The translations under genes were made by a program, and so were the position numbers. A DNA stretch of 64,000 nt from Deferrisoma camini S3R1 (GTDB lineage Bacteria; Desulfobacterota; Deferrisomatia; Deferrisomatales; Deferrisomataceae): NCBI RefSeq assembly GCF_000526155.1, contig NZ_JAFN01000001.1:1947014-2011013 (forward strand), read 5' to 3'. Shown in pieces: positions 3,165-53,111 of the stretch; within the stretch, counting starts at the first letter, position 1, and each line of letters opens with the position of its first letter. Below the pieces are notes generated by a model. It saw only the letters and a list, made by a program, of their open reading frames with translations. It made no database searches and was not told where the DNA came from.

Positions 3165-3600
3165 GGTCGCTGGTCGTCAGTCGTTGGTCGTTGGTCTGGG
3201 CCTTCGGCCCGCTGGGCGGCTGGGCAGCTAGGCGGCCTGGCGGCTCCCGAGCCTCGACTCCAAGACCTCGGGGGGCATGGGGTCTGCTGGAGAGCCGGGC
3301 GCGGCTCCTTAGCTCGCCGCGCAGCGCCTCCGGCGCCCGGACCGCGAAATGGTACCCCTTGCACGCGCCCGTGATGAAACCAACTCCCGTGTCTTGTGCC
3401 TGCGCGGCGAATCTCAACGCTCGGCTTCGCGCCCGGCCGGAGGTAGACCCCATGCCCCTCACGCTACGCTCGGACCGAGACGCACACAAAGCCTGTACCC
3501 CGCAAACAGGCCGCCTCGGGGCCTACGGAGCTGAAATCTGTATCCTGAACCCCCTGCCCCGCCCCACGAGAACTCTCGGCTGGAACGCAACTTGGTATCA
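3165..3600. repeat. composite intergenic repeat: heptamers, UUCG hairpin, octamers, palindromic core
   Basis: This is a nearly complete example of the modular repeat. From left to right it has heptamers of the TGGTCGT type (3168-3198), the hairpin GGGCCTTCGGCCC (about 3198-3211), octamers of the GCTGGGCG/GCTAGGCG type (3211-3247), and the core palindrome (3271-3459). The outer arms of the core, GGCATGGGGTCTGC and GTAGACCCCATGCC, are inverted, and so are the inner CTCGCCGCGCAG and CTGCGCGGCGAAT. The right flank ends at 3598 in AACGCAACTTGGTAT, the inverse of the terminal repeat seen at 15560. It fills the manC-cheB gap and contains no supportable gene. Confidence 0.85.
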
Positions 3601-14332: not shown

Positions 14333-14362
14333 ACTCTATGCGGTGGTCGGGGGGGTCGTCAA
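14333..14362 (-). promoter_or_regulatory. sigma-70-type promoter of the che operon
   Basis: On the minus strand TTGACG (14362-14357) and TAGAGT (14338-14333) are separated by 18 bases, about 40 bases upstream of the cheY start. It is the only good match in the divergent cheY-cytochrome gap. Confidence 0.6.
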
Positions 14363-14447
14363 CGCCTCATGCCGCGCCGTCCGGGTGCCGATGAGAGGGG
14401 CCGTGAGGTTCGTCAGTCCGCCCAACCCGTTCCTGGAGGATCTTTGC

Positions 14448-15560
14448 ATGCGAACCGCGCTCCTGGCCGCCCTGGTCTCCCTGCCCCTTGCGGCCGCACC
14501 GGCCGCGGCCCGCGAGCTGCCCCGGCTGCTGGCCCCGGCCGAAACCGGGGTGGTCCGCACCCCCCAGGTGCTGCTGGTGTACACCGTGCCCGCCGGCGAG
14601 CAGACCTTCGTGCGCGCCGATGGCAGGCGCCTCGACCGCAAAGGGGTGTCGGTGCCTGGGGACCGGGAGGATCTGTTCCACCTCCAGCTCCCCCTCAAAG
14701 AGGGGCGCAACCGGTTCGAGATCGTGCGGGCCGTGGACGAGAAGGTCCGCCTCTCGTTCACCGTGACCTACGTGCCCCCCTATTCGCTTCGCACCCCGGT
14801 CGCGCCGGGCGACCGGCCCTACGCGTTCCACACCCGCGAGCGCGAGGCCGGGTGCTCGGGCTGCCACAACCTGCCCGAAACCTACGAGACCGTGCCGGAC
14901 CGCCCCCTGGCCCCGGCGGGCAAGGTGTGCGGAGCGTGCCATCCCGGGATCGAGAAGGCCCCCAACCTCCACGGGCCCACCGCGGTGTACGCCTGCTTCA
15001 TGTGCCACGACCCGCAGTACCGGTCGGCCCGGTTCACGATCGCGGCCTCCCAGCCGGCGGGGTGCGGCCGGTGCCACGAGGACTTCCTGGCCCGGATCCT
15101 GGGGGGCAAGAAGTTCGTGCACGGGCCGGTGGCCGCCGGGGGGTGCCTGGTGTGCCACGATCCCCACGGCGGCAAGACCACCGCGGTGCTGCGCGAGGCG
15201 CCCCCGAAGCTGTGTCTGTTGTGCCATGCGGACACCCTGCCCCTGCCGGTGGACAAGGGCCTGCACGGATCGGTGCCCTGCACCCAGTGCCACAACCCCC
15301 ACGGCGGCGACACCCGGATCCTCACCGCCAAGGCCGGCAACGAGTTCTGCGCCGGGTGCCACCCGGACGTGGCCGAGGGGGGGCGCGGCCATCCCGTGGC
15401 GGGCCACCCGGTGGAGGCCGAGGTGGACCCCTCCCTCCCGGGCCGACCCCTGGGGTGCGTGAGCTGCCACGCCCCCCACGGGGTCTCGGACGTGAGCCGG
15501 GCCCGGATCCTGGAGAACGAACAGGCCCTGACCCGGTTCTGCCGGAAGTGCCACTACTGA
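14448..15560 (+). CDS. decaheme c-type cytochrome, exported
   Basis: A 370-residue exported cytochrome with a signal peptide (MRTALLAALVSLPLAAAPAAA), a region of about 100 residues without haem sites that looks like a small beta domain, then ten CXXCH haem motifs. In order these begin CSGCH, CGACH, CFMCH, CGRCH, CLVCH, CLLCH, CTQCH, CAGCH, CVSCH and CRKCH. Several are followed by HG, as in the doubled-CXXCH family. The last motif is three residues from the stop. The ATG at 14448 has GGAGG upstream; earlier in-frame starts lack one. It is likely a periplasmic or surface electron carrier, as in metal-reducing anaerobes. The stop codon TGA is the first triplet of the repeat element that follows. 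Confidence 0.93.
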   Translation: MRTALLAALVSLPLAAAPAAARELPRLLAPAETGVVRTPQVLLVYTVPAGEQTFVRADGRRLDRKGVSVPGDREDLFHLQLPLKEGRNRFEIVRAVDEKVRLSFTVTYVPPYSLRTPVAPGDRPYAFHTREREAGCSGCHNLPETYETVPDRPLAPAGKVCGACHPGIEKAPNLHGPTAVYACFMCHDPQYRSARFTIAASQPAGCGRCHEDFLARILGGKKFVHGPVAAGGCLVCHDPHGGKTTAVLREAPPKLCLLCHADTLPLPVDKGLHGSVPCTQCHNPHGGDTRILTAKAGNEFCAGCHPDVAEGGRGHPVAGHPVEAEVDPSLPGRPLGCVSCHAPHGVSDVSRARILENEQALTRFCRKCHY

Positions 15561-15825
15561 TACCAAGTTGCGTTCAAAGCCACTGGCCCCCTGAGCAGAG
15601 GGGCAAGGGACCTGCCGGAGAGCCGGGTGCGGCTCCTTAGCCCGCCGCGCAGCGCCTCCGGCGTTGGAGCCACGAAATGGCTTGCATTCTCCGGAGTTGG
15701 AATGAAACCAACTCTCCCGTCCCCTGCCTGCGCGGCGGATCTCAATACCCGGCTTCGCGCCCGGCCGGAGGCAGGTCCCTTGCCCCGCCTCCCCGAGGGC
15801 TCTCGGTTTGAACGCGACTCGGTAT
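15560..15825. repeat. complete MITE-like element with 19-bp terminal inverted repeats
   Basis: The best-defined copy of the repeat. The left end ATACCAAGTTGCGTTCAAA (15560-15578) matches the right end TTTGAACGCGACTCGGTAT (15807-15825) in inverse orientation with two mismatches. Between them lie the two half-palindromes, with outer arms GGGGCAAGGGACCTGC and GCAGGTCCCTTGCCCC and inner arms CCGCCGCGCAG and CTGCGCGGCGGAT. Each end begins with TA, compatible with a TA target duplication, which is not proven. It contains no transposase and fills most of the gap between the cytochrome and psd. Confidence 0.8.
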
Positions 15826-16529
15826 GAGGGCTTCTTTACCCCCGCAGGGCCCTCTGCTATAAGGGGCGGCCCGCACTCCAACCCGGGAGGGATCGATCTC
15901 CATGCTGCCCATCGTGCCCGATGCGTGGCCGTATGTCTGGAAGCTCTTGGCGCTGGCCGCGGTGACCGGCTTTCTCGGTTGGGAGACCCTGGCTTGGGCG
16001 TCCCTGGGGCTCACGGCGTTCGTGGTGTTCTTCTTCCGCGATCCGGAGCGGGAGGTCCCGATGGAGCCCGGCCTCGTGGTGTCACCGGCCGACGGCACGG
16101 TGCTCCGGGTGGACTCGGTGGAGGAGCCGTTCGTGGGCGGTCCGGCCGTGCGGGTCTCGATCTTCCTGAGCGTGTTCAACGTGCACGTGAACCGCTCGCC
16201 GATCACCGGAACCGTGCTGTTCCAGACCTACCGCCAGGGGAAGATGCTCCCGGCGTTCCGGGACCACGCCTCGGAGCTCAACGAGCGCAACACCCTGGGC
16301 ATCGAGGGCCAGGGGATCCGGGTCGTGGTGCACCAGATCACCGGCATGCTCGCCCGGCGGATCGTGTGCCGGGTGGGGCCGGGAGACCGGCTCCGGCGGG
16401 GGCAACGGTTCGGGCTGATCAAGCTGGGGTCGTGCACCGAGCTGATCCTGCCCGAGGGGGTGGAGCTGAGGGTGCAGCCGGGTCAGATGGTGGCGGGCGG
16501 ACGGACCGTGATCGCCCGGATTCCGGACG

Positions 16530-20844: not shown

Positions 20845-21150
20845 CGTGCGTTGGTCCGGGGCCATTGCCGGCGGCGGGGCATAGGGTCTGCTTCCGGCCG
20901 CGCGCGAAGCCGGGCATGAGATTCGCCGCGCAGGCACGGGGCACCAACGGTGGTTTCATGACCGTCCGGCCGGGGACCGAACGGTTTCACGGTGCGAGCG
21001 TTGGAGGCGCTGCGCGGCGAGCTAAGGAGCCGCACGCGGCTCTCCAGCAGACCCCATGCCCCCCGACTCCGGTGTCGAGACGAGCTTCCGACCAACGACC
21101 AACGACCAACGACCAACGACCGAAGCTACATGGAAGCGCGTCTGTTTACC
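20845..21150. repeat. composite repeat, inverted orientation, with four heptamers
   Basis: The core palindrome runs from about 20875 to 21062 in the opposite orientation to the 3271 copy. Its arms are GGCATAGGGTCTGC and GCAGACCCCATGCC. It is followed at 21090-21126 by heptamers GACCAAC three times, then GACCGAAGCTAC, the usual boundary of the heptamer module. The repeat and its flanks, including the TTTACCCGTCGGGTCAAC end near 21145-21162, fill the gap between the DUF4390 promoter region and lpxC. No supportable gene is present. Confidence 0.85.
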
Positions 21151-21159
21151 CGTCGGGTC

Positions 21160-21193
21160 AACAAGAAAAGCCGGCCCCAGGGGGAGACCGGCT
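21160..21193 (-). terminator. intrinsic terminator of lpxC
   Basis: On the minus strand, AGCCGG and CCGGCT form the stem, with further pairing of CCCC and GGGG inside, and TTTTCTTGTT follows. It is 31 bases beyond the lpxC stop. Confidence 0.65.
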
Positions 21194-22451: not shown

Positions 22452-22766
22452 GGTAACTTCGGTCGTTGGTCATTAGTCGTTGGTCGGGGGCCTTCGGCCC
22501 GCTAGGCGGCCGGGCGGCTCTCGAATCGCGCCAAAGCTCGGGGGCATGGGGCCTGCTGGAGAGCCGGGCGCGGCCCCTTAGCTCGCCGCGCAGTGCCTCT
22601 GACGCTTGGACCACGAAATGGTTCGGATTCCACATAGTTGCCATGAAACCAGCTCTTCAGTCCCGTGCCTGCGCGGCGAATTTCATGCCCGGCTTCGCGC
22701 CCGGCCGGAGGCAGGTCCCTTGCCCCGCCCTCCGAGGTGACACGCCTAATTTGTCGCCGGGTTAAT
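22452..22766. repeat. composite repeat: heptamers, UUCG hairpin, octamers, palindromic core
   Basis: The boundary GTAACTTC is followed by heptamers of the GGTCGTT type (22461-22488), the GGGCCTTCGGCCCGC hairpin, one or two octamers (22501-22520), and the core (22541-22729), with the far end CGCCTAATTTGTCGCCGGGTTAA. It lies upstream of the lipoprotein gene. A GGCCCC-CGAA-GGGGCC hairpin ends at 22802, just before that gene's ribosome binding site. The remaining 22230-22451 stretch shows nothing I can support. Confidence 0.85.
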
Positions 22767-24693: not shown

Positions 24694-24711
24694 TATGAAC
24701 CCAGCGATCAA

Positions 24712-24960
24712 ATACGCGCCCCCGCCCCGGATCGGAGGGCAAGGGACCTGCTGGAGAGCCGGGCCCGGCCCCTTTGCTCGCCGCGCAGCGCCTCCTGCGT
24801 CCGGACCGCGAAATGGCACCCATTCCAAGGAGTTGTAATGGAACCAACTCCCGTGTCTCGTGCCTGCGCGGCGAATCTCAACACCCGGCTTCGCGCCCGG
24901 CCGGAGGCAGGTCCCTTGCCCCGCCTCCGGAAAAACGCGCCTGTCTTGTTGCCGGGTCAA
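24712..24960. repeat. palindromic repeat copy
   Basis: The core arms are GGGCAAGGGACCTGC (about 24737-24751) and GCAGGTCCCTTGCCCC (about 24907-24922), with inner arms CTCGCCGCGCAG and CTGCGCGGCGAAT. The right boundary GTTGCCGGGTCAA, read on the minus strand as TTGACCCGGCAAC, supplies the TGA stop of the 56-residue gene. Confidence 0.82.
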
Positions 24961-27899: not shown

Positions 27900-28290
27900 C
27901 GGGCCTTTGGCCCGCTGGGAGGCTAGGAGGCTGGGAAGCTAGGAGGCTTGAAAACCTCCGTGAACTCCATGTGTTCCAAGCGTGGCCACGCCTCTTCTGC
28001 ATCCCCTCACGGTGTCGGGGGGCATGGGGTCTGCTGGAGAGCCGCGTGCGGCCCCTTAGCTCGCCGCGCAGCGCCTCTGACGCTCGGACCGCGAAATGGC
28101 TCGGATTCCAGCGAGTTGTCATGAGACCAGCTCTTCGGTCCCGTGCCTGCGCGGCGAATCTCATGCCCGGCTTCGCGCGCGGCCGGAAGCAGGCCCCATG
28201 TCCCGCCGCCAAGGCCCCAGGATCTCTGAACGTTACCTTTCCTCGTTGCCGGGCCCCGCAGGGGCCTGACGAGGCTCCCAAACAACGCGA
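27900..28290. repeat. composite repeat: hairpin, octamers, palindromic core, GGCCCC hairpin
   Basis: GGGCCTTTGGCCCGC (about 27900) is followed by octamers of the TGGGAGGC/TAGGAGGC type (27914-27950), an A/T-richer spacer, the core (28017-28206) and a stem-loop CCTCGT...GGCCCCGCAGGGGCC...ACGAGG (28241-28276). The last bases GACTATTTCATCGCCGG are a boundary motif that encodes the final codons and stop of rqcH on the other strand. Confidence 0.85.
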
Positions 28291-29844
28291 CTATTTCATC
28301 GCCGGTTTGGGGCTTCCCCAGCCGGGGCGGACCCGCACAGTCTCCTCGCCGTGGACCACCACCCGCCCCGGGCCGGCCCCCTTGGGCTTGCGGACCCGTC
28401 CGGCCTCGACCACCATCACCTCCACCGCCCCCTCCCCCGACCGCCGGGACCTCAGGGCCGCCAGGCCGGCGGCCTCCCGGAGGGTGCGATCGGGGCACCG
28501 GGCCTCCCGGCCCGGTTTCCGGATCAGCACGTGGGCGCCGGGCGCGTCCCGGGCGTGGAGCCACAGGTCCCACGGCCGGGCCTCGCGCAGCAGCCGGTCG
28601 TTCTCCCGGCCGTTGCGGCCCACCCAGATGGGCCAGCCGTCCGACGACACGTACCGGGCGAAGGGCCGGCCCCCGGGATCCGGGCGTGGCGGCGCCGCAG
28701 GTGGGGGGCCGCCGTCCGCCGCTGCCCCCTCGAGCTCCGCCCGGGCCGCGGCCAGCCTCTCCGTGAGCACCTCGCGGGCCCGCTCGGCCTTGGCCGCCCG
28801 GCGGTACAGCCGCTCCAGGTTGTCGGCGGGGGACCGAGCCGGGTCCAGGGGCACCTCCACCTCCCCGCCGCCCCACGGGTCGGGCAGGACCACCGTGTCG
28901 GTCCCCCGGGCCACCCGGTGGAGCCCCGCGGCCAGGGCGTCGGCCAGCCGCCGCAGCCCGGCGGGGTCCGGAAGCCGGGCCAGGTCCTGCTCGATGTTGC
29001 GGATCCTGCGCTCGACCCTCCGCCTCCAACGGCGGGCGTCGGGGGCGTCGCCCTCGGCCGGGGCGCCCGGTCCCGCCACCCGGACCTCCAGCCACCGGCC
29101 GGCGCCTTCCAGGGCCGACGGCCACACGGCCACGGGCGCAGCCCCTTCCCGTTCCACAGCCGACAGTCCGTCCTCGTACTCCCACAGGGGGCCGGGCCGG
29201 CCGTAGGCCGCCAGGATCTCTTTGAACGCCACGGCCGCGCCCTTGCGGTCCATCCGGGCCCGAAGCTCCCGGGCCTGCCCCGGGGTCACCCCGAACAGGA
29301 TCCGCTCCAGCGGCTCGCCCCGGCCGACCCGGCGCTCCAGCTCCCAGGGGTCCGCCCGGTCCGGGAAGACCCGTCCCTCGGGCACGGGGGGCGGCTCGTA
29401 CGGCCGACCCGGCGAGAGGCCCGGCCGGGGTCGGACCGCCTGGACCGCCCGGACCCGGCCGTCCGGATCCAGCACCGCCAAAAGGGGATGGCGACCGGCG
29501 GCCTCCCACACCAGGGAGCACCCGCCGTCGCCCCGGCGAAAGGCGAGCTCGAGCACCCGGTCGAACCGGCCCCAACGCACGCCTTCGAGCCGTCCGCCCA
29601 CGGCGTGGGCCCGCAGGTACGCGGCCAGGGCCGGGGGGCGGGGCGGGGCGGTGGGCCGGCGCTCCACCAACCCAACCCCCACGGCCCGCGGACCCGCCGC
29701 CAGCATGAGCAACCCGGTCCGCCCCGGGGCCCGCAGCCGCACCACCGCCCCCCAGTCGGGGGAGGCCCAGGCCCCCTGGACCCACGCCCCCCGCCAGTCC
29801 CGCTCCAGCTCGGCGCCGACCCGGGCCACCACCCACGGATCCAT
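28291..29844 (-). CDS. rqcH: NFACT-family protein (RqcH-like)
   Basis: Homologue of bacterial RqcH/eukaryotic NEMF, which binds stalled 50S-peptidyl-tRNA and adds C-terminal alanine tails. A 517-residue protein with an N-terminal NFACT-N region, a central helical and coiled-coil part (RRWRRRVERRIRNIEQDLA, AKAERAREVLTERLAAARAEL) and the diagnostic NFACT-R domain (SDGWPIWVGRNGRENDRLL, WDLWLHARDAPGAHVLIR). The protein is on the short side for the family. The start MDPWVV at 29844 is 11 bases after sppA. The C-terminal KPAMK and the TAG stop come from a repeat boundary. Confidence 0.88.
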   Translation of the reverse strand: MDPWVVARVGAELERDWRGAWVQGAWASPDWGAVVRLRAPGRTGLLMLAAGPRAVGVGLVERRPTAPPRPPALAAYLRAHAVGGRLEGVRWGRFDRVLELAFRRGDGGCSLVWEAAGRHPLLAVLDPDGRVRAVQAVRPRPGLSPGRPYEPPPVPEGRVFPDRADPWELERRVGRGEPLERILFGVTPGQARELRARMDRKGAAVAFKEILAAYGRPGPLWEYEDGLSAVEREGAAPVAVWPSALEGAGRWLEVRVAGPGAPAEGDAPDARRWRRRVERRIRNIEQDLARLPDPAGLRRLADALAAGLHRVARGTDTVVLPDPWGGGEVEVPLDPARSPADNLERLYRRAAKAERAREVLTERLAAARAELEGAAADGGPPPAAPPRPDPGGRPFARYVSSDGWPIWVGRNGRENDRLLREARPWDLWLHARDAPGAHVLIRKPGREARCPDRTLREAAGLAALRSRRSGEGAVEVMVVEAGRVRKPKGAGPGRVVVHGEETVRVRPGWGSPKPAMK

Positions 29845-32738: not shown

Positions 32739-32885
32739 CCTTCGGCCCGCCGGGGGGGGACGCTGGGACGTTAGGACGCTGGGAGGCTGGGAGGCCAAAA
32801 ACTCTTTTGCCTCCTGGCGGTTCAACCAGGTCTGCGCGTCACGGCATCACGGCCCGGGGGCATGGGGTCTGCCGACGGGCCGGCT
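32739..32885. repeat. partial composite repeat overlapping the cmk 3' end
   Basis: Units in order: the CGCCTTCGGCCCG hairpin, octamers GGGACGCT, GGGACGTT, AGGACGCT, GGGAGGCT (about 32758-32790), a CACGGCATCACGGC octamer pair and the left arm GGGGGCATGGGGTCTGCC (32856-32873). The rest of the core is missing. Confidence 0.75.
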
Positions 32886-39133: not shown

Positions 39134-39236
39134 CTTTTGGGCCTTCGGCCCGCTGGGAGGCTAGGAAGCTGGGAAGCTGGGAAGCCTTGGGGCCTGGTGG
39201 AGTGCCGCGCGCGGCCGGAGGTAGACCCCATGCCCC
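39134..39236. repeat. short composite repeat: hairpin, octamers, fused core ends
   Basis: TTTTGGGCCTTCGGCCCGC, then octamers of the TGGGAGGC/TAGGAAGC type (39150-39187), then the left arm joined directly to the right arm (GGGGCCTGGTGGAG to GGCCGGAGGTAGACCCCATGCCCC). The middle of the palindrome is deleted. It lies between convergent genes and could act as their terminator. Confidence 0.8.
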
Positions 39237-41482: not shown

Positions 41483-41485
41483 TCG

Positions 41486-41656
41486 TAAGACCTTCAAACG
41501 TATTGCCGGGGTACGGGGTGGGGGCCTGCTTCCGGCCGTGCGCGAGTGCGGCATCCGGCTTACGCTGCATCCGGCACTCAGCCCCATGTTGCCATCCATC
41601 GGACCCGCATCCGGGGGCGGGGCAAGGGGCCGATAGCTTGGAACGCAACTTGGCAT
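41486..41656. repeat. degenerate palindromic repeat copy
   Basis: AGACCTTCAAACGTA, then GGGGTGGGGGCCTGCTTCCGGCCGTGCGCG, a diverged middle (TGCGGCATCCGGCTTACGCTGCATCCGGCA) and the end TTGGAACGCAACTTGGCAT, which matches the terminal repeat at 15560. The left part is shared with the copy at 776-895. The following 41657-41748 shows nothing else. Confidence 0.65.
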
Positions 41657-45655: not shown

Positions 45656-45776
45656 AGTAACTGCGGTCGTTGGTCGGGCCTTCGGCGCCACGGCATCACG
45701 GCATCACGGCTCGGGATCACGCGGTCTGTTGGAGAGCCGCGGCCGGTCGGTTCCCGTGGGCGGGCGGATCGGCTAT
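45656..45776. repeat. partial composite repeat between pepF and the DUF4911 gene
   Basis: The boundary AGTAACTGC and a short heptamer tract (GGTCGTTGGTCGG), then GGGCCTTCGGC, octamers CGGCATCA twice (about 45690-45706), then a truncated core arm (CGCGGTCTGTTGGAGAGCCG). It lies in a divergent promoter region. Confidence 0.7.
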
Positions 45777-46056: not shown

Positions 46057-47435
46057 CGGCCCCCTTCGCCCCCGGCCGGGTGATCCGGCTGGCCCTCGCC
46101 CGGGGCGGGGATCTGGCGGAAGTGTACTGGGAGAAGGCCCGCAGCGCCACCGTGGTGCTGGAGGCGGGCCGGGTCGAGGAGGCCCGCGCCGGCATCCGGC
46201 ACGGGGCAGGCATCCGGGTGGTCGAGGGGGAGCACGAGGTCTACGGCCACCAGACCGGGCCCGACCCCTCGTCCCTGGAGGAGCTGGCTCGGGAGGTGGC
46301 GCGGCTCCGGCCCGGCTCGGAGCCGGCCGTGGTGGCCTCCGGCGCCGTCGCGCCCCTGGCGGGGCCGGGCAGGGATCCGTTCGCGGGCCTCGACCTGGCC
46401 GCCCGCGCCGACCTGGCACGCCGGCTCGACCGAGCGGCCCGGGCCGTGGACCGCCGGGTGGCGCAGGTGCGGGTGATCTACCAGGACCACGCCCAGGAGG
46501 TGTGGGTCGCGCCGTCCGACGGCCCGCCGGTGCGGGACCTGCGTACCGGGTTCTATTTGGGCGTCCTGGTGGTGGCCCGAGACGGCGAGGTGGTCCAGAC
46601 CGGGTACGAGGCCGTGGCCGCCACCAGGGGCTGGGAGGTGTTCGACGAGCAGCCGCCCGAGGAGCTGGCGGTGACCGCGACCCGCAGGGCCGTGCGGCTC
46701 CTCTCGGCGCCCCGGGCCCCGGCCGGCCGGATGCCGGTGGTGCTGGCCAGCCAGGCGGGGGGCACCATGGTGCACGAGGCCGTGGGCCACGGTCTGGAGG
46801 CCGACCTGGTGCTGCAGGGGCACTCGGTGTACGCGGGCCGGGTCGGGGAGACCGTGGCATCGGAGCTCGTAACGGTGGTGGACGACCCCACATTGCCCGG
46901 GCGGCGGGGGTCCTACCGGTTTGACGACGAGGGAACCCCGGCCCAGCGGACCGTGCTGGTGGAACGGGGCGTCCTCAAGGGCTTCCTCCACAGCCGCACC
47001 ACGGCCCGCCGCATGGGGGCCCGGCCCACCGGCCACGGCCGGCGGGAGTCGTTCGCCCACCGGCCGATCCCCCGCATGGGGAACACCCTGATCGCCCCCG
47101 GGCCCCACGACCCGGAGGAGATCCTGCGCGAGACCCCCACGGGCCTGTACGTGACCCGCATGGGCGGGGGCCAGGTGGACACGGTGAGCGGGGACTTCGT
47201 GTTCGAGGTGGCGGAGGGGTTCCGGATCGAGAGCGGCCGGGTGGGCGAGCCGGTGCGGGGAGCCACCTTGGTGGGCAACGGCCCCCGGGTGCTCCGGGAG
47301 ATCGACCGGGTCGGTTCGGACCTGGGGTTCTCGGTGGGCACCTGCGGCAAGGACGGCCAGGGGGTGCCCGTGGCCGACGCCCAACCCACCCTGCGGATCC
47401 CCGAGATGGTGGTGGGCGGCGAGGCAGGCTGTTGA
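46053..47435 (+). CDS. tldD: TldD/PmbA-type metalloprotease subunit
   Basis: 460 residues. The zinc motif HEAVGHGLEAD and the SGDFVFEVAEGFRI, GATLVGNGP and VGTCGKDGQGVPVADAQPTLRIPEM segments place it with TldD, which together with TldE/PmbA cleaves peptides such as modified peptide antibiotics and CcdA. No tldE neighbour is present. The GTG start overlaps the DUF4911 stop. The TGA stop falls in the boundary motif GTTGACCCGGC of the following repeat. Confidence 0.93.
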   Translation: MTAPFAPGRVIRLALARGGDLAEVYWEKARSATVVLEAGRVEEARAGIRHGAGIRVVEGEHEVYGHQTGPDPSSLEELAREVARLRPGSEPAVVASGAVAPLAGPGRDPFAGLDLAARADLARRLDRAARAVDRRVAQVRVIYQDHAQEVWVAPSDGPPVRDLRTGFYLGVLVVARDGEVVQTGYEAVAATRGWEVFDEQPPEELAVTATRRAVRLLSAPRAPAGRMPVVLASQAGGTMVHEAVGHGLEADLVLQGHSVYAGRVGETVASELVTVVDDPTLPGRRGSYRFDDEGTPAQRTVLVERGVLKGFLHSRTTARRMGARPTGHGRRESFAHRPIPRMGNTLIAPGPHDPEEILRETPTGLYVTRMGGGQVDTVSGDFVFEVAEGFRIESGRVGEPVRGATLVGNGPRVLREIDRVGSDLGFSVGTCGKDGQGVPVADAQPTLRIPEMVVGGEAGC

Positions 47436-47515
47436 CCCGGCGGAAAAGGAGGCGAGTTCGCCGGAGGCGGGCCATGGGGTCTGCCTCCGGCCATGCGGGA
47501 GTGTCGGGGGCGGAG
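47433..47515. repeat. truncated palindromic repeat after tldD
   Basis: TTGACCCGGCGGAAAAGGAGGCGAG followed by GGGCCATGGGGTCTGCCTCCGGCCATGCGGGAGTG, then a few degenerate heptamers (GAGACCAGAGACTAG). One arm only. Confidence 0.65.
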
Positions 47516-48322: not shown

Positions 48323-48471
48323 TTGACCCGGCGACGAAATAGGCGCGTCACCTCGGTCTGTCCTCCGTCCCCTGAACTCTGTCCACCGATACGGCCGCGC
48401 CCGGCTCTCCGATGGGTCCCTTGCCCCTCGGATCTGGGAACGATAGCGGCTATTTCATCCGCCGGGTTGAC
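48323..48471. repeat. repeat copy with TTGACCCGGC-type ends
   Basis: The left end TTGACCCGGCGACGAAATAG begins two bases after the acyP stop. The right end GCTATTTCATCCGCCGGGTT (about 48451-48470) is its inverse with a few changes. Inside are degenerate heptamers (TCTGTCCTCCGTCCCC) and a core arm (CGCGCCCGGCTCTCCGATGGGTCCCTTGCCCC). This shows the second type of terminal repeat of the family. Confidence 0.75.
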
Positions 48472-51511: not shown

Positions 51512-51770
51512 GTCCTCATATCAAAATTCTCGGCCCCCTGGGCTGGCGGGGCAAGGGACCTGCCTCCGGCCGGGCGCGAAGCCGGGCATGAGATTCGCCG
51601 CGCAGGCGCGGGGCAGAAGAGCAGGTTTCATGACAGCTCGGTGGAATCCGACCATTTCGCGGTCCGAGCATCAGAGGCGCTGCGCGGCGAGCTAAGGGGC
51701 CGCGCCCGGCTCTCCGACAGGCCCTTTGCCCCGCCCTGGTGGAGCTCTATTTGAAGGCAACCTGGGATCA
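51512..51770. repeat. palindromic repeat copy, inverted, ending in the DUF1015 stop codon
   Basis: The core (about 51545-51738) is in inverse orientation to the 15560 copy, with arms GGGGCAAGGGACCTGCC and GGCCCTTTGCCCC. The right end TTTGAAGGCAACCTGGGATCA is the terminal repeat with changes, and its last TCA is the complement of the DUF1015 stop. The left terminal repeat is truncated (ATATCAAAATTCTCGG). Confidence 0.8.
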
Positions 51771-53111
51771 GCCCCCCGGCAGCACCTCGGCCGGGTCGAA
51801 CAGCAGGTGCATCACCAGTCCCGTGACCTGCTTCGGGAAGAAGTAGGTGCTCTTCTGGGGCATTCGCTCGCCGGCCAGGGCCACCTCCTTGACCTCCTCG
51901 ACCCGGGTGGGGTTCATGACGAAGCCCAGCTGGATCTCGGGATCCTCGACCACCTGACGCACCAGCTCGCCGGTGCCCTTGACGTACCGGAGGTTGCGCT
52001 GCTCCTCCTGGGCCTTGCGGTCGATGCCGAGGATCCGCTCGAGGATGAGGGAGTGGAGGATGGTCACGTCCAGGGTCTGCACCACTTTGGGCACCCGGCC
52101 CCGGAGCATCCGGTGCATGACCCCGTCGTCCCTGAGCACCAGGAGCCGGAACCGGGGCTCGCCCTTGGCCACGAGCCCGAAGGCGTGGGCCCGACCCCGC
52201 AGGTCCCGCAGCCGGGCGGACAGGGTCTCGGCGTCCGCCACCGGCTCCACCTCGAAGAACTCCTCCAGCTGTCGTTCGAGGTTCTCGATCCGGTCCGGGG
52301 GCACCCCGAACACGGCCCGGTGGGTGGGGAACACGGCCAGCCCCGGCGAGCTCAGGTTCGAGAAGTACATCATCACGTAGTTCCACGGCTCGTTGCCGGT
52401 GTAGCCGGGGTGGCGCTCCCGCATGAGGTCCCGGTACCGCAGGGCCGTCTCGTAGCGGTGGTGCCCGTCGGCGATCACGAACACCTTGTCAGCCATGCGG
52501 CGGGTCACCTCCCCCACGAGGCGGGGCTCGGTCACCCGCCACAGCCGGATCTCCACCCCCTCGTCGGTGTGGACCCGGATCAGGGGAGGCTTCCCCTTGG
52601 CCATGGCCTCGAGGTCCCGCAGCACCACCATCTGGGGGTCGTCGTACAGGCTGAAGATCGGGCTCAGGTTCGCCCTCACGGCCTCCATGAGCCGGAGCCG
52701 GTCGGCCTTGGGCCCGGCCAGGGTCCGCTCGTGGGGGAAGTACAGGCCGGAGTCGGGATCCTCGAGCCGCACCTTGGCGTAGTACCCCCTCCGGGTCAGG
52801 GGCTCACCGAACTCGCCGCGGTAGTCCTCCTCGGTGTAGTACACGCTCATTTCCCGATCGCGGATCAGCACCTTCTTCCGGAGCCATTCGATCAGCGTGC
52901 GTCGCGCCCGGGTGTAGCGGTTCTCCTCCTCGTCGTCGCCGGGAAGCACCTTCCCGAACTCCAGGCGCACCACGTTGTAGGGGCTCCGCCGGTACAGCTC
53001 CTCCTGGAGCTCCGGCCCGATCACGTCGTAGGGCGGGCAGATCACCCGGTCGAAATCGTCCACCACGGCGGGGTTGAACCGAACCCCTCGAAATCCCAGC
53101 ACCTCGGCCAT
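51768..53111 (-). CDS. DUF1015 family protein
   Basis: 447 residues, cytoplasmic, with FRGVRFNPAVVDDFDRVICPPYDVIGPELQEELY at the start, YNVVRLEFGK, FPHERTLAGPKADRLRLMEA and the histidine-rich VFVIADGHHRYETALRYRDL. This is a full-length DUF1015 protein, widespread in anaerobes and often near serine or SAM metabolism genes, but of unknown activity. The stop codon belongs to a repeat end. Confidence 0.9.
   Translation of the reverse strand: MAEVLGFRGVRFNPAVVDDFDRVICPPYDVIGPELQEELYRRSPYNVVRLEFGKVLPGDDEEENRYTRARRTLIEWLRKKVLIRDREMSVYYTEEDYRGEFGEPLTRRGYYAKVRLEDPDSGLYFPHERTLAGPKADRLRLMEAVRANLSPIFSLYDDPQMVVLRDLEAMAKGKPPLIRVHTDEGVEIRLWRVTEPRLVGEVTRRMADKVFVIADGHHRYETALRYRDLMRERHPGYTGNEPWNYVMMYFSNLSSPGLAVFPTHRAVFGVPPDRIENLERQLEEFFEVEPVADAETLSARLRDLRGRAHAFGLVAKGEPRFRLLVLRDDGVMHRMLRGRVPKVVQTLDVTILHSLILERILGIDRKAQEEQRNLRYVKGTGELVRQVVEDPEIQLGFVMNPTRVEEVKEVALAGERMPQKSTYFFPKQVTGLVMHLLFDPAEVLPGG

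Follow-up and report, generated by a model that had tools for sequence, protein, structure and literature searches.

RUP of Streptococcus pneumoniae is a 107-bp MITE with ends like those of IS630-Spn1 (PMC3049150), and the repeat family described here resembles it as an intergenic, high-copy MITE with IS630-like ends, while differing in its longer palindromic core, several end types per core, TNA duplication and stop-codon placement. Short inverted ends are a feature shared with ISY100 of Synechocystis and the IS630-Tc1-mariner group; in the IS630 members studied the insertion target is TA, which is duplicated (PMC2170065). Type B does the same here, whereas type A ends are associated with duplication of a 3-bp TNA. 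A 3-bp duplication, of TAA, is made by the fungal Fot/pogo transposons, which are ITm members, although these are eukaryotic, their target is fixed, and a link to stop codons is not reported there (PMC7386202). REP/BIME and other extragenic palindromes are likewise intergenic, palindromic, present in many copies and often placed after genes, but the present repeats are set apart by target duplications, empty sites and defined ends of transposon type. The family is a MITE of a known kind with variant features, namely a probable TNA-duplicating IS630 subgroup, ends that may be exchangeable and stop-codon occupancy. Our main reading, to which we give a probability of roughly 0.85, is that these are non-autonomous MITEs moved by IS630-family transposases, in which one core carries two end sets, A duplicating TNA and B duplicating TA.

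Repeat family and its copies

The window, the 64-kb stretch of DNA analysed here, comprises bases 1,947,014-2,011,013 of a single-contig genome of 4,236,551 bp (G000) and has a G+C content of 72%. The genomes compared with it were a MAG of the same genus whose contigs match record JALUTY01 (G001), a second draft from the same genus (G002) and a genome of the same family (G003). The elements in the window are as follows.

15561..15824, plus strand: full A-A MITE, TACC...GGTA, 264 bp; site unoccupied in G001
15558..15560: TGA, left copy of the duplicated target, which is also the in-frame stop codon that ends the multihaem cytochrome ORF 14343-15560
15825..15827: TGA, right copy of the duplicated target of the same MITE
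15561..15578, plus strand: type A end, TACCAAGTTGCGTTCAAA
15807..15824, minus strand: type A end in inverted orientation, with 2 mismatches
15586..15800: core; its inverted arms are 15586-15616 and 15770-15800
51518..51767, minus strand: A-type MITE with one end degenerate; target duplication TCA/TCA
24696..24960, plus strand: B-B MITE with the common core; C-TA and TA-G (TA duplication) flank TGAACCC...GGGTCAA
22536..22765, plus strand: core and right B end (22743-22765, then TA); left end unrecognised
20866..21161, minus strand: core and B end at 21139-21161
28006..28310, plus strand: core and B-like right end at 28288-28310
3269..3460, plus strand: core without recognised ends; lone A end at 3580-3597
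41582..41655: mini A-type element, 74 bp
41485..41507, plus strand: type E end, matching a second resident IS630 (L088 group)
48323..48470: short element, B ends at left and right
47432..47454, plus strand: lone B end

An earlier note, made from the sequence of the window, had described 15560-15825 as a MITE-like element, and its many copies, inverted ends, lack of coding capacity and presence/absence polymorphism bear this out, although the mobile unit is in fact 15561-15824 (TACC...GGTA) between TGA flanks. The two 19-nt ends of 15560-15825 match at 17 of 19 positions, the inner arms are 81% complementary, and the whole element folds back at -150.9 kcal/mol (z = -7.5; none of 200 shuffles was as good); no Rfam family matches it at the gathering score. 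Searching the window with this copy by BLAST and nhmmer recovered six further full cores, at 3271, 20875, 22541, 24737, 28017 and 51545 (76-85% identity, E 1e-62 to 1e-32, both orientations), exactly those listed in the earlier note, and its statement that copies lie only between genes and in both orientations holds for all seven full copies, each of which lies outside the genes called independently with a codon model. The partial copies that it listed are more mixed: genuine ends or arms are present at 41486-41656, 47433-47515 and 48323-48471, matches at 776-895 and 39187-39236 are weak, and 45706-45776 and 32856-32873 gave no BLAST match at E<=1, the latter lying inside a predicted gene.

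The genome-wide search that the note had proposed finds copies well beyond the window, with at least 48 matches when 40 of 343 first-look candidates were scored. Twenty evenly spaced 20-kb samples (400 kb) hold about 16 full copies, which corresponds to some 170 per genome; with 7 in 64 kb, the window is denser than the even sample by a factor of about 2.7. Alignment of 30 copies gives one conserved core of about 190 bp with several kinds of outer 20-25 bp. The statistics are based on 654 kb of sequence stretches. Two of the outer sequences define end types: type A, TACCAAGTTGCGTTCAAA, has 137 sites within 3 mismatches and none for the reversed pattern, and type B, TTAACCCGGCGGATAAACAGGCG, has 39 sites and none for its control. 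A ends also flank elements with a second core (about 282 bp) and minis of 66-96 bp. The family is thus short, non-coding and multicopy with inverted ends, shows target duplications and empty sites in relatives, and shares its ends with autonomous transposons, those of type B in G000 and those of type A only in other genera.

Target duplication of type A

At 38 of the 60 A-ended pairs the 3 bp on either side are the same, in almost every case TGA or TCA. In four presence/absence comparisons the empty site keeps a single TNA and no TA, from which it follows that the type A duplication is TNA and that the terminal TA is part of the element. The window element, in which CACTACTGA is followed by TACC..GGTA and then TGAGGGC, has its empty site in G001 as CACTACTGAGGGC, and an insertion in G002 between GTTCGTCA and TCAGTCC is empty in G000 as GTTCGTCAGTCC. 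Conversely, at two places where G001 has insertions, L285 986-1267 and L294 1030-1312, G000 is empty and has one TCA in the first case and one TGA in the second. The empty sites for which the earlier note had suggested a search in relatives therefore exist, but they show duplication of TNA and not of TA. A few A-type copies (G000:C1:704893-705155 and 2020353-2020616) have inverted triplet flanks (CTAG, CTCG/CGAG), against the TNA rule.

Placement on stop codons

The triplets TGA and TCA fit TNA, and where the duplication falls on a stop codon the stop is restored and the gene is left intact. In the window this applies to 15561-15824 at the cytochrome stop and to 51518-51767, whose right duplication (51768-51770) is the stop codon of the minus-strand gene 51768-53111. 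With genes called by our own caller and stretches picked partly around A ends, the duplicated triplet is the exact in-frame stop of the adjacent gene in 26 of the 38 copies with perfect duplications, and the duplication lies on a stop codon in 31 of all 60. Against non-coding TSA triplets (S = G or C), of which 17% are stops, the 26/38 gives an odds ratio of 10 (p 9e-12); against CTSAG pentamers, with 27% stops, it is 6 (p 4e-6); and against non-coding TSA 1-150 bp downstream, with stops that overlap another gene dropped, it is 5.2 (p 1.3e-5). Without the filter for perfect duplications, the 31/60 still gives 2.6 under the cautious null (p 1e-3). In G001, some of whose insertions are common by descent with G000, 11 of 19 are on stop codons (odds ratio 6.4, p 1.7e-4), and in other phyla 2 of 15, where the enrichment is not significant (p 0.07). 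A-type insertions are thus concentrated exactly on the stop codons of genes, 2.6-10 fold above the nulls, a placement that the earlier note had not seen.

This excess would arise from target choice or from selection, and we regard it as an even question whether selection, or a benefit as terminators, accounts for it in place of target choice. Insertions in coding sequence get lost, perfect duplications decay more slowly at stops, and a convergent gene is faced in 12 of 29 cases as compared with a background of 26%, all of which would favour selection or a terminator benefit; set against this, the copies with perfect duplications make 4-8 times less use, per site, of non-coding TSA just downstream of stops, where an insertion should do about as little harm. 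We found no paper on stop-codon-targeted bacterial MITEs, although absence from the literature searched is not proof that none exists. For a parasite, settling exactly on stop codons offers a simple means of inserting beside genes without breaking them. A broader proposal, which we hold tentatively and consider possible rather than probable, is that a widespread IS630 subgroup duplicates TNA, that its transposase complex prefers stop codons as safe target sites, a duplicated TGA or TAA restoring the stop, and that the MITE core can switch between two mobilising enzymes through exchanged ends.

Probable mobilising transposases

IS630-family cut-and-paste transposases would move the MITEs in trans, with recognition confined to the outermost 20 bp or so. 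Type B ends (TTAACCCGG...) probably belong to a resident IS630 that duplicates TA: G000 contains three intact, nearly identical B-ended elements of 1105 bp and one that is interrupted, encoding a transposase of 345 aa (Pfam DDE_3 7e-38, NCBIfam IS630 3.5e-73). One of these elements (L081, G000:C1:4028590-4029694) is inserted in a MITE core with a clean TA duplication, GAGC-TA-[TTAACCC...GGGTTAA]-TA-AGG. An insertion of about 2.1 kb divides the B-type IS630 copy at L082 (G000:C1:716554-719765), whose halves overlap by 4 bp. A second resident IS630 is present as three copies of at least 99% identity and carries type E ends, one of which is also present in the window at 41485. For each of the types A, B and E the transposase scores above the NCBIfam IS630 cut-off.

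Type A ends (TACCAAGTTGC...) would belong to a subgroup of IS630 in which the duplicated target is a 3-bp TNA. The 18-mer A end occurs in at least 119 stretches of GTDB genomes across phyla, many of them with short pairs of 50-380 bp, and a single complete element, in an Ottowia MAG, has an IS630-family transposase gene, in two frames, within an A-ended pair of 1129 bp flanked by TCA/TCA; single ends accompany such genes in further genomes. In several other genomes homologues of the transposase (40-62% identity) lie directly beside A-like ends with TNA outside, and TACC-like ends with TCA/TCA are present in two other relatives. The two frames of the Ottowia gene meet at a run of seven T/A (L182 2390-2430), as is expected of programmed frameshifting. 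We found no close relative of the Ottowia transposase in G000-G003, so that the A-type partner is inferred from other genera, and G001, G002 and G003 showed no long A-ended pair with a transposase. A full IS with the same terminal repeats, as sought in the earlier note, is therefore available from Ottowia and was not found in this genus. The IS630/Tc1-type mobiliser named in that note is supported at the family level, by the IS630-encoding element with A ends in another genus and by the B ends of the resident IS630, although its TA detail is not.

Duplication of TNA has been described for some members of the IS5 family. It is nevertheless improbable that the A ends belong to another family of this sort (for example the IS1031-type IS5 group), with the Ottowia IS630 gene as coincidence or passenger. 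Such an origin would suit the 3-bp TNA better than IS630, known for TA, but the IS630-family gene lies inside the 1129-bp unit with its TCA/TCA flanks and its homologues adjoin A-like ends in several other genomes. The IS630 subgroup, if so assigned, with ends from Deltaproteobacteria to cyanobacteria, would be a comparison for target stagger in IS630-Tc1-mariner.

Several other candidates were examined and rejected. A putative A-ended transposon at 1031879-1033056 consists instead of separate MITEs, and a multicopy Scytonema IS630 is without A-type ends. L061 (G000:C1:2264849-2266611) is an A-ended core-2 MITE interrupted by an IS4-like unit with ends like ACACAGTACACTT, whose 399-aa protein, judged by eye, reads like an IS4-type transposase, and it is therefore not the A-type partner. 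Two IMG/VR viral contigs, L258 and L259, bear A-type ends, L258 with two short A-ended pairs, one of them between TCA/TCA. A text search of the literature for the type A end sequence returned only unrelated titles among those listed.

Possible exchange of ends and loss of the interior

Types A and B have unrelated ends on the same core, a feature that had also escaped the earlier note. The 61 full cores include 21 with A-A ends, 11 B-B, 4 B-A and no A-B, and 11 have no recognised outer ends; the distances from end to core are constant, 51/49 and 54/51 bp for the two end types. The four hybrids (G000:C1:341402, 1683358, 3619251 and 4059382) have the B end to the left of the core and the A end to the right, the reverse being unseen. 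One palindromic core would thus circulate with two alternative matched end sets. Recombination within the sub-terminal arms that they share may have swapped the end types, and one core with two such sets suggests that a MITE family is able to switch from one mobilising enzyme to another.

Insertions at orthologous sites are not alike inside. The core centre is missing from the 15560 copy in G002 and from the 24696 copy at the same site in G001; at one orthologous site G000 has 75 bp where G001 has 344 bp, and at another 76 bp where G001 has 282 bp. Loss of the interior from the palindrome fits these differences and would explain the origin of the 66-96 bp minis. The versions without a core at the same site in sister species, together with the 11 cores without recognised outer ends, could also be taken to mean that the core is itself mobile, by way of its inverted arms (GGGGCAAGGGACCTGCC), and was inserted into short A- or B-ended elements; this is improbable, as the core keeps its fixed distance to both end types, the sub-terminal arms are common to these, no duplication is seen around the core, and copies without a core are equally well explained by interior loss.

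The terminal TA

Type B has both an IS630 transposase and TA duplication, the MITE at 24696-24960 being flanked by TA/TA, and type A has no 2-bp TA target duplication. Outside the genus, perfect duplications of TAA, TTA or TGA are present at 19 of 37 A-ended pairs. The suggestion in the earlier note that the target duplicated is the TA at the tip of each end, as in a plain TA-duplicating IS630/Tc1 MITE, is true of type B and accords both with the TA that starts every A end and with the IS630 members studied (PMC2170065), but for type A we reject it as very improbable, given the single TNA without TA at the four empty sites, the TNA repeats outside the TA in 38/60 copies and the 19 further perfect cases in other phyla.

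Relative to G001, the window has an extra 346-bp stretch at 27924-28271, in the region of the element 28006-28310. A second, unrelated intergenic repeat of about 50 bp (GGCTAGAAGGCTGGAAAGC-like) is present at about 27924-27970 and elsewhere in the genome, at G000:C1:2578447, 631008, 2459071 and other positions.
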